Below, in pieces: positions 19,725 to 24,213 of a DNA stretch of 64,000 nucleotides. The number at the start of each line of letters is the position of its first letter. The stretch's first letter is position 1. Under the pieces are notes generated by a model that did not search any database, was not told where the DNA came from, and saw only the letters and a list, made by a program, of their open reading frames with translations. The DNA lies in contig NZ_CP064703.1 in NCBI RefSeq assembly GCF_023101085.1, positions 4,526,001 through 4,590,000 on the forward strand. The letters are read 5' to 3'. Made by a program: the position numbers and the translations under genes. This DNA comes from Bradyrhizobium sp. 170 (GTDB lineage: Bacteria > Pseudomonadota > Alphaproteobacteria > Rhizobiales > Xanthobacteraceae).

Positions 19725-19868
19725 GCGTTCTGGCACGCCGGCATAGCCGCCGGCGGCACCAATGACGGACCACCCGGCCTGCGCCACTACCGCGCCGCAT
19801 ACTACGGCGCGTTCCTGCGCGATCCCGACGGCAACAAGGTCGAGGCGGTTTGCCACCGGGGGCAGTAG
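19725..19868 (+). pseudogene. Truncated VOC gene copy (C-terminal third)
   Basis: Encodes 47 residues (AFWHAGIAAGGTNDGPPGLR, then HYRAAYYGAF and onward) nearly identical to the end of the VOC protein at 16957-17343, including the stop region, but with no N-terminal part. Only the 3' end survives. The downstream flank up to 19914 also matches the first copy. Confidence 0.8.
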
Positions 19869-19885
19869 CAAGCGCAAAGCAATCA

Positions 19886-19915
19886 TAGCCCTGGATGAGC
19901 GCAGCGACATCCGGG
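19886..19915. repeat. Dispersed repeat unit, second copy
   Basis: TAGCCCTGGATGAGCGCAGCGACATCCGG, the same family as 17360-17387. It forms the tail of the second long direct repeat. The following 200 bp up to 20128 hold nothing I can support. Confidence 0.65.
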
Positions 19916-20128
19916 GGTGTGGTGGGGCGCGAATTCATAAATTCGGAGCGGTCGGCGGACGTCCGCTTTGGTGCGCATCCCGGACGCAAGTCGGACATCG
20001 CCCGCGGGTCAGGACAGGTGGGACCGCGGCGGCGGGCGCCCCCCGGATTATCTCCCACGCCGCGGAACCTCGCGTGCTATCTTTCCAAGTATCGAAAATA
20101 TTGGACCTCAGCCCGGGACGGATTTGCC

Positions 20129-20262
20129 ATGAGTCGGCGCGAATTCATCGACGTTCTCGGGGGCGCCTCCATCGCGTGGTCGCTCGCCTTCCCTGCGGCG
20201 AGTGGGCAGGATGGAGAAAGGTCAATCGCGTGGGCTTTCTGACTCGGTCTCAACTCAAATAG
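20129..20262 (+). pseudogene. N-terminal remnant of a Tat-exported ABC substrate-binding protein
   Basis: Begins MSRREFIDVLGGASIAW, the twin-arginine-like leader (RREFI..LGGA) of a substrate-binding-protein family that is very common in Bradyrhizobium. After QDGERS the frame hits a stop at 20240-20242, whereas a neighbouring frame continues NRVGFLT, the expected start of the mature protein. A frameshift plus deletion of the rest, about 290 residues, is evident. The hybrid kinase gene starts 13 bp later. Confidence 0.65.
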
Positions 20263-20274
20263 GATATTCTGAAC

Positions 20275-21864
20275 ATGTCGACGCTCACCCCGCATGGCGC
20301 GTGCTTGATGTGGAAGCCGGAATTGATCTGGCTGAATGCGGTTTCCGACGCCATGCTCGCCGGCGCCTTCTTTGCTACCGCGTTCGTCGTCGGGCTCTTC
20401 GTGTGGCGGCGCCGCGATCTCATGTACCGCGGCGTGTTCGGGATATTCGCTATCTTCGTCACGGTCTGCGGGATGACCCGCCTGCTGGCGATCCTCACTT
20501 TGTGGGTGCCGGCCTACGACATCGAAGGCCTCACCAAAGGCTTCCTGGCGCTGATATCGGTCGGGATCACGGCGGCACTGCTGCTGTCGCTGCCGCGGAT
20601 CCTGGTGCAGCCGTCGCGCACGCAACTTGCGCAAGCCAATGCGGCGCTTGAGGAGGAAATCCGGCACCGGCGCAAGGCCGAGGCCATGGTTAAACGTTTT
20701 CAGGAGATAGAGGCCAACGAGGCCCAGGTCCGGCAGGCGCAGAAGATGGAAGCCGTCGGCCAACTCACCGGCGGTGTGGCGCACGACTTCAACAACATTC
20801 TGACGGTGATCACCGGAACCATCGAAATCCTCGGCGAGGCGGTCAAGGATCGTCCGCATCTCGTCCAGATCACCGATATGATCAGCTCCGCCGCGGCGAG
20901 GGGGGCCGACCTGACACGGCATCTGCTGGCCTTCGCCCGTCGACAGCCGCTGCAGCCGCGCAACACTGACGTCAACGCCCTGGTCGTCGATGCCGCGCGG
21001 TTGCTGCGACCGACCCTCGGCGAACAGATCGAAATCGAATCGATGCTGGCACACGATTCCGCGCCGGCCCTGATCGATCCCAGTCAGCTCTCGACGGCGA
21101 TCCTCAACCTCGCACTGAATGCGCGTGACGCCATGCCGAACGGCGGCAAGCTGACGCTCGAAACCAGGAATGTCGTGCTCGACGAGAACTACCCCGGCAT
21201 GACCAGCGAGCTCAAGCCGGGCAACTACGTCATGATCGCGGTGAGCGACACAGGGGAGGGAATCCCCGGCGGCCTGCTCGACAAGGTGTTTGAACCGTTC
21301 TTCACCACCAAGGAGGTCGGAAAGGGATCGGGGCTGGGTCTCAGCATGGTCTACGGCTTCGTCAAACAGTCGAACGGACATATCAAGATCTACAGTGAAG
21401 AGGGCCACGGCACCACCGTGAAGCTTTACCTGCCGGCGGCGGCGGGTGTCCCGGACGCGCTGGCCGCCGAAGCTGGCATCTCGGGGGGCGAACACGGCGA
21501 CGAATCCATCCTGATTGTCGAGGACGACCCGCTGGTCCGCGAATACGTCGTGACGCAGATCAGCCGTTTTGGGTACCACACGATGGCCGCCGGCAATGCC
21601 GCCGAGGCGCTTGCAATCATTGATGGTCCCGAACGCTTCGATCTGCTGTTCACTGACGTGATCATCCCCGGCGGACTAAACGGCCGTCAGCTCGCGACCG
21701 AGGCGCTGAAACGGCGCCCGGAACTCAAGGTGCTTTATACGTCTGGTTATACCGAGAACGCCATTGTACATCATGGCCGCCTCGACGCCGGCGTGCTGCT
21801 CCTGCCGAAGCCTTACCTCAGCTCCGATCTCGCGCGGATGATCCGGACCGCGCTGGCATCGTGA
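20275..21864 (+). CDS. Hybrid histidine kinase with ethylene-receptor-like N-terminus
   Basis: A 529-residue protein. Residues 10-110 comprise three membrane spans resembling the ETR1 ethylene-binding domain (PELIWLNAVSDAML, VTVCGMTRLLAILTLW, GFLALISVGITAALL). By my reading the ETR1 landmark positions D25 and C65 are conserved, Tyr32 is Phe, and His69 is Arg. Then come a short coiled coil, HisKA with H170 (GGVAHDFNNIL), HATPase (NLALNARDAMP, GEGIPGG, GSGLGLSMVYG) and a C-terminal receiver with D461 (LLFTDVIIPGG). It probably phosphorelays between His170 and Asp461. No cognate output gene is adjacent. Confidence 0.88.
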   Translation: MSTLTPHGACLMWKPELIWLNAVSDAMLAGAFFATAFVVGLFVWRRRDLMYRGVFGIFAIFVTVCGMTRLLAILTLWVPAYDIEGLTKGFLALISVGITAALLLSLPRILVQPSRTQLAQANAALEEEIRHRRKAEAMVKRFQEIEANEAQVRQAQKMEAVGQLTGGVAHDFNNILTVITGTIEILGEAVKDRPHLVQITDMISSAAARGADLTRHLLAFARRQPLQPRNTDVNALVVDAARLLRPTLGEQIEIESMLAHDSAPALIDPSQLSTAILNLALNARDAMPNGGKLTLETRNVVLDENYPGMTSELKPGNYVMIAVSDTGEGIPGGLLDKVFEPFFTTKEVGKGSGLGLSMVYGFVKQSNGHIKIYSEEGHGTTVKLYLPAAAGVPDALAAEAGISGGEHGDESILIVEDDPLVREYVVTQISRFGYHTMAAGNAAEALAIIDGPERFDLLFTDVIIPGGLNGRQLATEALKRRPELKVLYTSGYTENAIVHHGRLDAGVLLLPKPYLSSDLARMIRTALAS

Positions 21865-21906: not shown

Positions 21907-24213
21907 TCAGACGAACAGAAAATCGCTGGCGTGAAGCTGGCTCAATGTCGTGTTCCGAATCTCGATCGTGTTGTTGGCGTCGACCGTAATCACGACGCTC
22001 GTGCCAACCTCGGCCATGTGCGATTGAAGGGCGCTGAAGTCGGCAAACACCGTCTTGTCGAACTGAATGATGTCCTGCACACCATCGGTGTTCTGGAAGT
22101 CGGCAACCGTGTCCTTGCCGAAGCCGGCAGCGAAAACGAATGTATCATTGCCGGCCCCGCCGGCCAGATAATCGTTTCCACCGCTACCGATCAGCCGGTC
22201 GTTGCCGCTGCCTCCATACAGGAATTCGTTGCCGGTACCGCCCTGCAAGCTGTCGTTGCCATCGTCTCCGAACATTTGCGTTGCAGCCGTGCCACCTTTC
22301 AGCTGGTCGTCGCCGGCGCCACCGTGCATGGTATCCAGTCCGCCGCCGCCGGAGAGATAATCGTTGCCGTCACCGCCACTCATGACGTTCGCCGCTCCGC
22401 TGCCGTAGAGCTGGTCCTTGCCGGCGCCGCCGTCGAGCAGGGCACCGGTGTCGCCGGTGCTGGCCTTGATGATGTCGTTGCCGTCATCGCCATAGAGTTG
22501 ATCCGTCGCGGTAGCGATGCCGGCGCCGCTGTTGATCGTATCGTCGTCCGCTCCGCCGCGGATCGCATCCGCGCCGGGGCCGCCGTTGATGGTGTCGTTG
22601 CCCGCGCCGCCCTGGATCACGTCCGCCCCGGCGCCGCCGCTTATCACATCTTTGCCTGTACCTCCTTCAAGGCTGTCGTCATCGGTCGACGAACCGAAGA
22701 ACAGGTCCTGGCGACCGGTCATGTCATAGTGGATGGACCGGTTTTGATAGAGATTCCACGTTCCCGGCGAACTTGGATTGACCCCGTCGGAGACGGCAAG
22801 ATGCTCGCCGTTGACGGTGATGTCCTTGATGTAGAGGTTGCGGTCGCCATTGGCGTTGGCGACATCGTTGATGAAAGCGAGATCGAGGCTGGAGACCGTG
22901 GTCGGGTTGGCGAATGTGAAGGTGAAGGTCTGGAACCCCGAGGCGTCGGTCGCGCCGTGGAATTCGACGGTGTTGCCGACCTGCTGCCCGTTAATCAGGA
23001 GCTGCATTTTGGCACCGACGCCGTCGACGACGGAGCTGTAACCCGTCACCGTGACTGACGTCTCCGTGAGCTTCGGAATTGTATCGGGCCCGCCAGTAAT
23101 GGTGTCGTCGCCCCCATCTGACTTGATCGTGTCGTTGCCGACCCCGCCTGACAGAATATCATTGCCGCCGCCGACATCCATCAGATCGGCAGACGGAGAA
23201 CCCGTCAGCGTCTGGCCGGGCGGCTGGTGCTGACCTCCGTACCATTCGGTAATCAACTCCTGCGCAGGCTTGCCCTGGGGCGAGTAGCCGATAGGTGAGT
23301 ATTTGTTGTTCGTATCCCAGTTCCAGATCGACGCGCCCCTGAACCAGCTTCCGCCTTCCGATCCCCACACCTGAAAGAAGGCGTTGAAGGCGTCATATTG
23401 CTCCTGGACGTCCTGCGTCGTGCCTTCGGCCCAGCCGCCCGGCCTGATATTGGTTCCGTCGACGCTGCGATAGCCGGTTTCAGTGAAGAACACCTGCTTG
23501 TCGTACTGCAAGGCAAGGGAATGGAAGAAATCGACCGGCGACATGTGATTCATCACCTTCGCCCAGTAGTCGTCCGTGGACATGTTTTTCCACGCATTGA
23601 CCATCTCCTCGACGGTCGGCTCGGTTGTCGTCGTTAGCGGCGGATACGCATTGATTCCGATGACATCAACCTTGTCCCAAAAGCTGACATTGATGGCTTC
23701 GTCGGTTGCGGCTGCATAGGTGATCTCGCCGTGGAACACGGCGCGTATGGAATCGATGAGGTCAACCCAGTAGCTTCGATATTGGGGTCCGGAGAGCTTG
23801 CCGAGTTCGTTGCCGATCGAGAGCATGGTCACGCCGGCCTGCTCGGCGATTTCAGCCATGTGGACCATTTCGTTCTTGTAGGAAGCAAAGAAGGCGGCGG
23901 GATCGCTCGGAATGAGAGCGTATGCGAGCGTCCCATCGAGGGCTGAGACCATGGGCTTCAACGTAACCGAGAGCCCGAGCGCCTCCGCATTTGCCGCAGC
24001 CTGAAGAATATTGGCGTCGCTCTCGGTCTTGCCGGGATCGGCGAAGACATCATTCGACGTCCTGGTCTGCATAAACAGCCGCGGAGCGAGCTCGATCGAG
24101 TTTGCATTGGTGCTCGCGATCGCCTGCATGGCGGCGTACGCGGAACTGGTGACGAATGCACCATTGTAGTTGGAGAGGAACCCAAATCCCTGAACAGGAA
24201 ATACACCAGCCAT
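21907..24213 (-). CDS. Secreted glycoside hydrolase-CBM-RTX repeat protein
   Basis: A 768-residue protein. Residues 1-330 form a TIM-barrel glycoside hydrolase resembling GH113-type mannanases, with likely catalytic Glu136 (SIGNELG) and Glu245 (FFTETGY). A short RTX block follows, then about 100 residues like the Ca-dependent xylan-binding CBM36/60 fold (AFINDVANANGDRNLYIKDI). About ten or more GGxGNDxL-type RTX nonapeptide repeats come next, and a C-terminal tail (TVADFQNTDGVQDIIQFD ... SDFLFV) that resembles a type I secretion signal. There is no N-terminal signal peptide. It is probably exported by a type I system and folds on calcium outside the cell to bind and cut a beta-linked polysaccharide. 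Confidence 0.88.
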   Translation of the reverse strand: MAGVFPVQGFGFLSNYNGAFVTSSAYAAMQAIASTNANSIELAPRLFMQTRTSNDVFADPGKTESDANILQAAANAEALGLSVTLKPMVSALDGTLAYALIPSDPAAFFASYKNEMVHMAEIAEQAGVTMLSIGNELGKLSGPQYRSYWVDLIDSIRAVFHGEITYAAATDEAINVSFWDKVDVIGINAYPPLTTTTEPTVEEMVNAWKNMSTDDYWAKVMNHMSPVDFFHSLALQYDKQVFFTETGYRSVDGTNIRPGGWAEGTTQDVQEQYDAFNAFFQVWGSEGGSWFRGASIWNWDTNNKYSPIGYSPQGKPAQELITEWYGGQHQPPGQTLTGSPSADLMDVGGGNDILSGGVGNDTIKSDGGDDTITGGPDTIPKLTETSVTVTGYSSVVDGVGAKMQLLINGQQVGNTVEFHGATDASGFQTFTFTFANPTTVSSLDLAFINDVANANGDRNLYIKDITVNGEHLAVSDGVNPSSPGTWNLYQNRSIHYDMTGRQDLFFGSSTDDDSLEGGTGKDVISGGAGADVIQGGAGNDTINGGPGADAIRGGADDDTINSGAGIATATDQLYGDDGNDIIKASTGDTGALLDGGAGKDQLYGSGAANVMSGGDGNDYLSGGGGLDTMHGGAGDDQLKGGTAATQMFGDDGNDSLQGGTGNEFLYGGSGNDRLIGSGGNDYLAGGAGNDTFVFAAGFGKDTVADFQNTDGVQDIIQFDKTVFADFSALQSHMAEVGTSVVITVDANNTIEIRNTTLSQLHASDFLFV

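Follow-up and report, generated by a model that had tools for sequence, protein, structure and literature searches.

In the ethylene receptor ETR1 the Cu(I) ion is held by Cys65 and His69, and a change of His69 in AtETR1 leads to loss of ethylene binding; Tyr32 is reportedly the seventh of the ethylene-binding residues. Passages of two articles on AtETR1 place Cys65, His69, Asp25, Ile35, Pro36 and Ile62 among the essential ethylene-binding residues (PMC6586836, PMC11819568). The text excerpted from the second of these further describes loss of ethylene binding in C65 or D25 mutants, and models Asp25 as positioning His69 and bonding to Lys91, a residue involved in output (PMC11819568). We describe here a protein encoded in the window, i.e. 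the whole stretch of 64,000 nucleotides of Bradyrhizobium DNA that was analyzed, which shares with AtETR1, SynEtr1/Slr1212 and AzoEtr1 (PF25487) a homologous three-helix N-terminal domain, Asp25, Cys65, the counterpart of Lys91 and an N-terminal Cys, but in which Tyr32, Ile35, Pro36, Ile62 and His69 have been exchanged (Table 1). The numbering of its residues matches that of ETR1.

A preliminary description of this gene had recognized an ETR1 ethylene-binding-type domain at matching numbering, and this is borne out by a Pfam scan, in which ETR1_N (PF25487) matches at 75.4 bits (E 4.5e-21; gathering cut-off 27). Three hydrophobic stretches are present in the sensor, with Kyte-Doolittle 19-residue windows above 1.5 starting at 21-27, 48-50, 53-62 and 85-94, and the sensor aligns with the typed Bradyrhizobium domains bearing His69 (H69 domains) without a gap in residues 17-43 and 50-79, except for a few copies that are partial or short. 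The Pfam score and the gap-free alignment rule out a chance resemblance or misalignment to ETR1_N. The listed relatives also carry ETR1_N, and the concern that close homologues might reveal an unrelated membrane domain did not materialize. Neither single-sequence nor profile searches of structures retrieved a solved structure matching the sensor domain; the sole single-sequence match, an anion transporter (E 0.72), was taken as chance. The designation as a hybrid kinase also held, with HisKA, HATPase_c and receiver domains found by Pfam and the HisKA His, the N, G1, F and G2 boxes and the receiver Asp and Lys all in place. Models of the PRK13557/CckA-type alphaproteobacterial HisKA-receiver hybrid kinases match residues about 143-527, but with scores far below their curated cut-offs (408 of 631; 338 of 1000), and those kinases have another input domain; identification of the protein as CckA was rejected (NCBIfam CckA 337.9 against a cut-off of 1000).

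Table 1. Features of the hybrid kinase gene and its adjoining gene, in positions of the window
Feature	Position	Strand	Remarks
Hybrid sensor histidine kinase ORF (P0001)	20275..21864	+	529 aa, ATG to TGA
ETR1_N-type three-helix transmembrane domain, residues 16-110	20320..20604	+	Pfam PF25487, 75.4 bits; three hydrophobic stretches
Asp25, retained	20347..20349	+	codon GAC
Residues 32-36: Phe32, Thr35, Ala36 replacing Tyr, Ile, Pro	20368..20382	+	alignment; Phe32 = TTC, 20368-20370
Val62 replacing Ile	20458..20460	+	alignment
Cys65, retained copper ligand position	20467..20469	+	codon TGC
Arg69 replacing copper ligand His69	20479..20481	+	codon CGC
Lys88, counterpart of ETR1 Lys91	20536..20538	+	alignment by eye
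HisKA, residues 162-224	20758..20946	+	phospho-acceptor His170 in VAHDFNN
HATPase_c, residues 268-389	21076..21441	+	Pfam match
Receiver (Response_reg), residues 412-523	21508..21843	+	Asp461 in LLFTDV
GH113 glycoside hydrolase with CBM60 module and RTX repeats	21907-24213	-	adjoins kinase

A functional receptor is expected to have all seven ethylene-binding residues, whereas the window protein has two, D25 and C65, with Phe32, Thr35, Ala36, Val62 and Arg69 at the other five positions; of the Cu(I) ligand pair it has Cys65, and Arg instead of His at 69. The four residues named in the preliminary description (Asp25, Phe32, Cys65 and Arg69) are indeed encoded as it had read them. The domain is indeed of the ETR1_N type, but the view that the sensor merely lacks one ligand falls short, since five of the seven binding residues differ rather than two positions. 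To that account we add the changes to Thr35, Ala36 and Val62, the retention of Lys88 and the conservation of Arg69 across a whole clade. Judged by these residues, there seems to be no reason to expect Cu(I)-ethylene chemistry in this protein.

A homologue search with residues 1-125 recovered 445 matches, the best 120 of which, together with the query, make up the 121 sequences on which the following residue counts are based. Position 69 is Arg in 119 of the 120 listed homologues (120/121 with the query), the exception being a His in P0115; F32 and D25 are found in all 121, K88 in 120, the N-terminal Cys10 in 118 and C65 in 111, with nine Ser and one Gly in the remainder. Across 35 chosen clade loci (a codon count made without the Cys69-bearing L089, the frameshifted L054 and near-copies), position 69 is invariably Arg, by the three codons CGC, CGG and CGT; Cys65 is replaced in five of these (two Ser and one each of Ala, Gly and Phe), all five of which keep Arg69. 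The survey of position 69 that had been called for thus showed Arg to be conserved across the clade, and these two counts rule out a lone mutation or a sequencing error. The exchange of Tyr32, Pro36 and His69 is clade-wide, and that of Ile35 and Ile62 extends to most members.

The retention of Asp25, Cys65 and Lys88 might be taken to mean that the protein is still an ethylene receptor, with Cys65 and other groups (possibly Met67 in this strain) holding the Cu(I). We regard this as very improbable: five of the seven binding residues differ, Met67 is present in only 18 of the 121 sequences, Cys65 is dispensable in some relatives, and the AtETR1 mutants of C65 or D25 described in the excerpted article lose ethylene binding (PMC11819568).

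ETR1_N matches were found in 101 of 146 Bradyrhizobium genomes. Among the matches below 98 bits in these genomes, which were typed by sequence, we found 32 domains of the Arg69 clade in 28 genomes, with R69 in 31 of them and Cys69 in the decayed L089; in the stronger-scoring H69 group, of which about 30 best matches and a few more were typed, His is present wherever position 69 was covered. Of the 28 Arg69-clade genomes, ten additionally encode a complete H69 domain and one a fragment, and the other 17 lack one, which indicates that the clade is independent of an H69 partner. In a quick tree of 117 rows, computed without the five trait columns and with many forks unresolved, the Arg69 clade falls on one branch (SH-aLRT 100). 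This tree was built without duplicates (L001, L011, L012), near-copies (L042, L046-L048, L050-L053), broken copies (L054, L080, L087, L088), very divergent rows (L127, L142-L147), and four listed homologues and the paralogue copy that were used as profile seeds. As P0115 and L089 lie inside the clade, their His69 and Cys69 are probably later changes. All 13 named loci encoding a relative of the window sensor domain are Bradyrhizobium records, and no clade members were recognized outside the genus in 248 family, 347 order, 385 class and 398 phylum genomes (overlapping draws, with matches partly typed); plasmids gave no match of at least 60% identity. The Arg69 kinase gene is seemingly split by a frameshift in L054, the second copy of B. 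erythrophlei GAS478, and in L050 of BRP22.

Selection was assessed on 29 clade genes, a set that also excludes L060, L066, L074 and the divergent L084-L086 and L089. The catalytic His is present in all 29, as are the invariant letters of boxes N, G1, F and G2, and the receiver Asp is kept in 28 of the 28 that extend to the receiver. On a kinase-core tree of these genes, codon 69 underwent at least six changes, all of them between Arg codons; if the site were neutral, with one-third of CGN changes silent, the chance of six silent changes in six would be about 0.0014. His lies a single transition away from Arg. Over the 95 domain sites there is a mean of 2.5 amino-acid changes per site, and 29 sites, including R69 and likewise D25, F32, A36 and K88, are without any amino-acid change; C65 changes twice and site 62 five times. 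Arg69 is under purifying selection. In the divergent sub-branch of L084, L085 and L086, which is not among the 29 genes, Asp25 and Cys65 are gone and Arg69 stays. Given that Cys65 has been lost repeatedly with Arg69 kept, Arg69 is more tightly constrained than the copper ligand that remains. The median pairwise dN/dS of the sensor in the 29 genes is 0.31, as against 0.115 for the kinase, 0.119 for the receiver and 0.17 for the H69 sensor (36 genes), and this faster evolution relative to both the H69 sensor and its own kinase core fits a partial relaxation.

The weaker constraint relative to the H69 sensor would also be expected of a relic, in which ethylene sensing was lost, the domain only anchors and dimerizes a kinase that is constitutive or driven by cytoplasmic partners, and Arg69 is kept for folding as a packing or charge residue. 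Consistent with this are the broken copies with split reading frames (L050 and L054), the loss of Asp25 and Cys65 in a few relatives, and the frequency with which weaker matches, fetched from the family and order, lack part of the seven-residue set. We nevertheless consider a relic rather unlikely, as the sites without amino-acid change make up 29 of the 95 and include R69, the invariant residues comprise the charged D25, R69 and K88 inside a hydrophobic bundle, and R69 alongside Cys65 was gained in a second lineage.

To judge from the sequences of this second lineage, Arg69 arose again, separately, in a family of PAS-HWE kinases. The loci L139, L203 and L204, from another family of the order, combine C65 and R69 with E25 and E88, and the L139 gene product is a PAS-HWE kinase. 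Nine proteins were listed in a search with L139: three have ordinary seven-residue domains, and six are close (P0122-P0127), two of them from MAGs named Ancalomicrobiaceae. C65, R69 and E88 are common to the six, whose residue 25 is E, G or A; as P0122, P0123 and P0126 repeat the domains of L139, L203 and L204, these amount to six distinct sequences and not nine. Five of the six have the PAS and HWE kinase domains, the sixth being a 282-aa piece. Like the window protein, these ETR1_N-PAS-HWE kinases have Arg69, keep Cys65 and have lost Tyr32 and Pro36; they differ from it in having Glu88 for Lys and a variable residue 25.

The recurrence of this pair bears on yet another reading, that of a thiol/redox sensor in which the pKa of Cys65 is lowered by Arg69, a helical turn away, and the resulting thiolate reacts with an oxidant or electrophile. 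The spacing of the two residues and the presence of Cys65 in 111 of the 121 sequences and in all six listed members of the second lineage agree with it. Such a sensor is improbable in light of the replacement of Cys65 in 10 of the 121 sequences and in five of the 35 loci, where Arg69 was kept all the same, and of the fact that only one of the 121 lacks Arg69.

The charges that accompany Arg69 were counted on residues 20-103 of 172 distinct complete rows (after removal of 27 repeats and 16 partial rows), a non-random sample in which divergent and clade members had been fetched on purpose; the fetched loci L128-L130 were not picked up by the profile, and L201 and L210 are absent from the list in which L139, L203 and L204 were typed. 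An acid at 25 or 88 is present in 42 of the 44 distinct R69 rows. Of the seven R69 rows without an acid at 25, five have an acid at position 88, which is normally Lys, compared with 6/163 rows with an acid at 25. This pattern represents two lineages rather than seven events. In the Bradyrhizobium branch, an acid at 88 is seen in two of the four rows without one at 25, but not in L085 (N25/Y88) and P0133 (N25/N88); moreover, the two closest listed relatives of L086 have annotated starts downstream of most of helix 1, and residue 25 of L086 may therefore not be translated. In the second lineage, Glu88 is present in all six members whatever the residue at 25, and hence there is no clear compensation. 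L126 and L147 also have R69, each as a single divergent sequence.

We posit, with slightly more confidence than doubt, that the window gene encodes a functional hybrid kinase with a rebuilt ethylene-type input domain that is copper-free and ethylene-blind, and in which an Arg69 ion network replaces Cu(I)-His. The input domain would have descended from a bacterial ethylene-binding domain and then been rebuilt; it would form a dimeric, ETR1-like bundle of three helices within the membrane, hold no Cu(I) between residues 65 and 69, and thus be blind to ethylene in the ETR1 manner. The guanidinium of Arg69 would substitute for the copper cation within a buried ion network, and because a buried Arg69 needs an anion, its simplest partner would be Asp25 of helix 1 or an acid at position 88 of helix 3. 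Output coupling between helix 1 and helix 3 via Asp25-Lys88 would be kept in most members. A different stimulus, such as a small molecule or the bilayer or redox state, or else a fixed tone, would set autophosphorylation at His170, from which a phosphoryl relay might run to Asp461 and on to a further partner. That five of the seven residues differ together, and that Arg69 has outlived Cys65 and Asp25 in some relatives, points to a copper site that was exchanged rather than damaged. What can be read from sequence is the domain, the motifs of kinase and receiver, the exchange throughout the clade, the selection on Arg69 and the second lineage, and on these grounds the clade is a genuine branch of the ethylene-receptor input domain, non-canonical and under selection. 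A wider generalization, which we offer tentatively and think doubtful, is that the ethylene-binding fold serves as a reusable membrane sensor, in which at least two lineages swapped Cu(I) for an Arg at the copper-His position, matched by an acid on helix 1 or helix 3, and changed from ethylene receptors into copper-free sensors of another stimulus, in some Bradyrhizobium beside a true receptor.

The genome carrying the window is 9.2 Mb in a single contig, and its two nodA and two nifH matches above the curated cut-offs make it very likely that the host is a legume symbiont, in line with the plant association initially supposed. It has two ETR1_N matches, the window gene (79 bits) and an H69 paralogue (136 bits; L005, G000:C1:7552475-7554058). 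The latter likewise has ETR1_N followed by a kinase and a receiver and is 49% identical to the window protein over residues 3-527, but has all seven binding residues, as opposed to two of seven, with the motif CGVGH. The same motif, with Gly for Thr68, is seen in the H69 paralogue of eight of the ten genomes having both types (L005, L017, L018, L020, L022, L024, L027 and L030), and the other typed Bradyrhizobium H69 genes mostly have CG[LFVT]TH. The Arg69 clade suggests that, within one rhizobium, a single sensor fold could have been divided between an ethylene and a non-ethylene channel.

Over the kinase and receiver, the window protein shows identities of 69, 67 and 62% to three kinases that are encoded in the same genome and lack an ETR1_N match, as against 48% to the H69 paralogue, and the two sensors are 44% identical. 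With the sensor and the kinase having different nearest kin in the same genome, a domain exchange is suggested. No response regulator was found among the ten neighboring ORFs scanned, and no conserved operon partner across the 13 named loci. Thirteen window ORFs were tested, the kinase and 12 others; those recognized in the named loci occur in L042-L044 only, the GH113 neighbor being recognized only in L043, and crude clustering yielded no neighbor family common to all 13 loci besides the kinase. Upstream of the kinase, at 19780-20262, are short fragments resembling gene debris by eye, one of them a VOC-like C-terminus that ends near 19868 and another a Tat-leader-like piece (20129-20242), neither of which has a Pfam match.

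The titles, abstract starts and some passages of the open-licence literature yielded no description of an Arg at this position in bacterial ETR1_N domains. Bacterial ETR1_N proteins tend to be read as putative ethylene receptors, and for the Arg69 clade this domain label is insufficient: this branch is under selection, its copper site is altered, and in some genomes it is found beside an intact receptor. With its natural variants one can ask which residues serve copper binding and which, like Asp25/Lys91, signal transmission. Beyond the clade, we observed many weaker ETR1_N matches in which part or most of the seven ethylene residues are lost in different ways (L109, L112, L121-L126, L137-L148, L171, L178 and L200), with Gln, Asp, Glu, Ser or Phe at position 69 and Cys65 absent, the alignment of the most divergent being unsure; non-ethylene ETR1_N domains thus seem common. 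Finally, L058, L111 and L114-L119 are short H69 ETR1_N proteins (213-303 aa open frame) that have all seven ethylene residues and, in the alignment, a gap of three residues behind helix 2 and no Lys opposite position 88; hence, Lys91 may not be universal even in canonical-looking sites.
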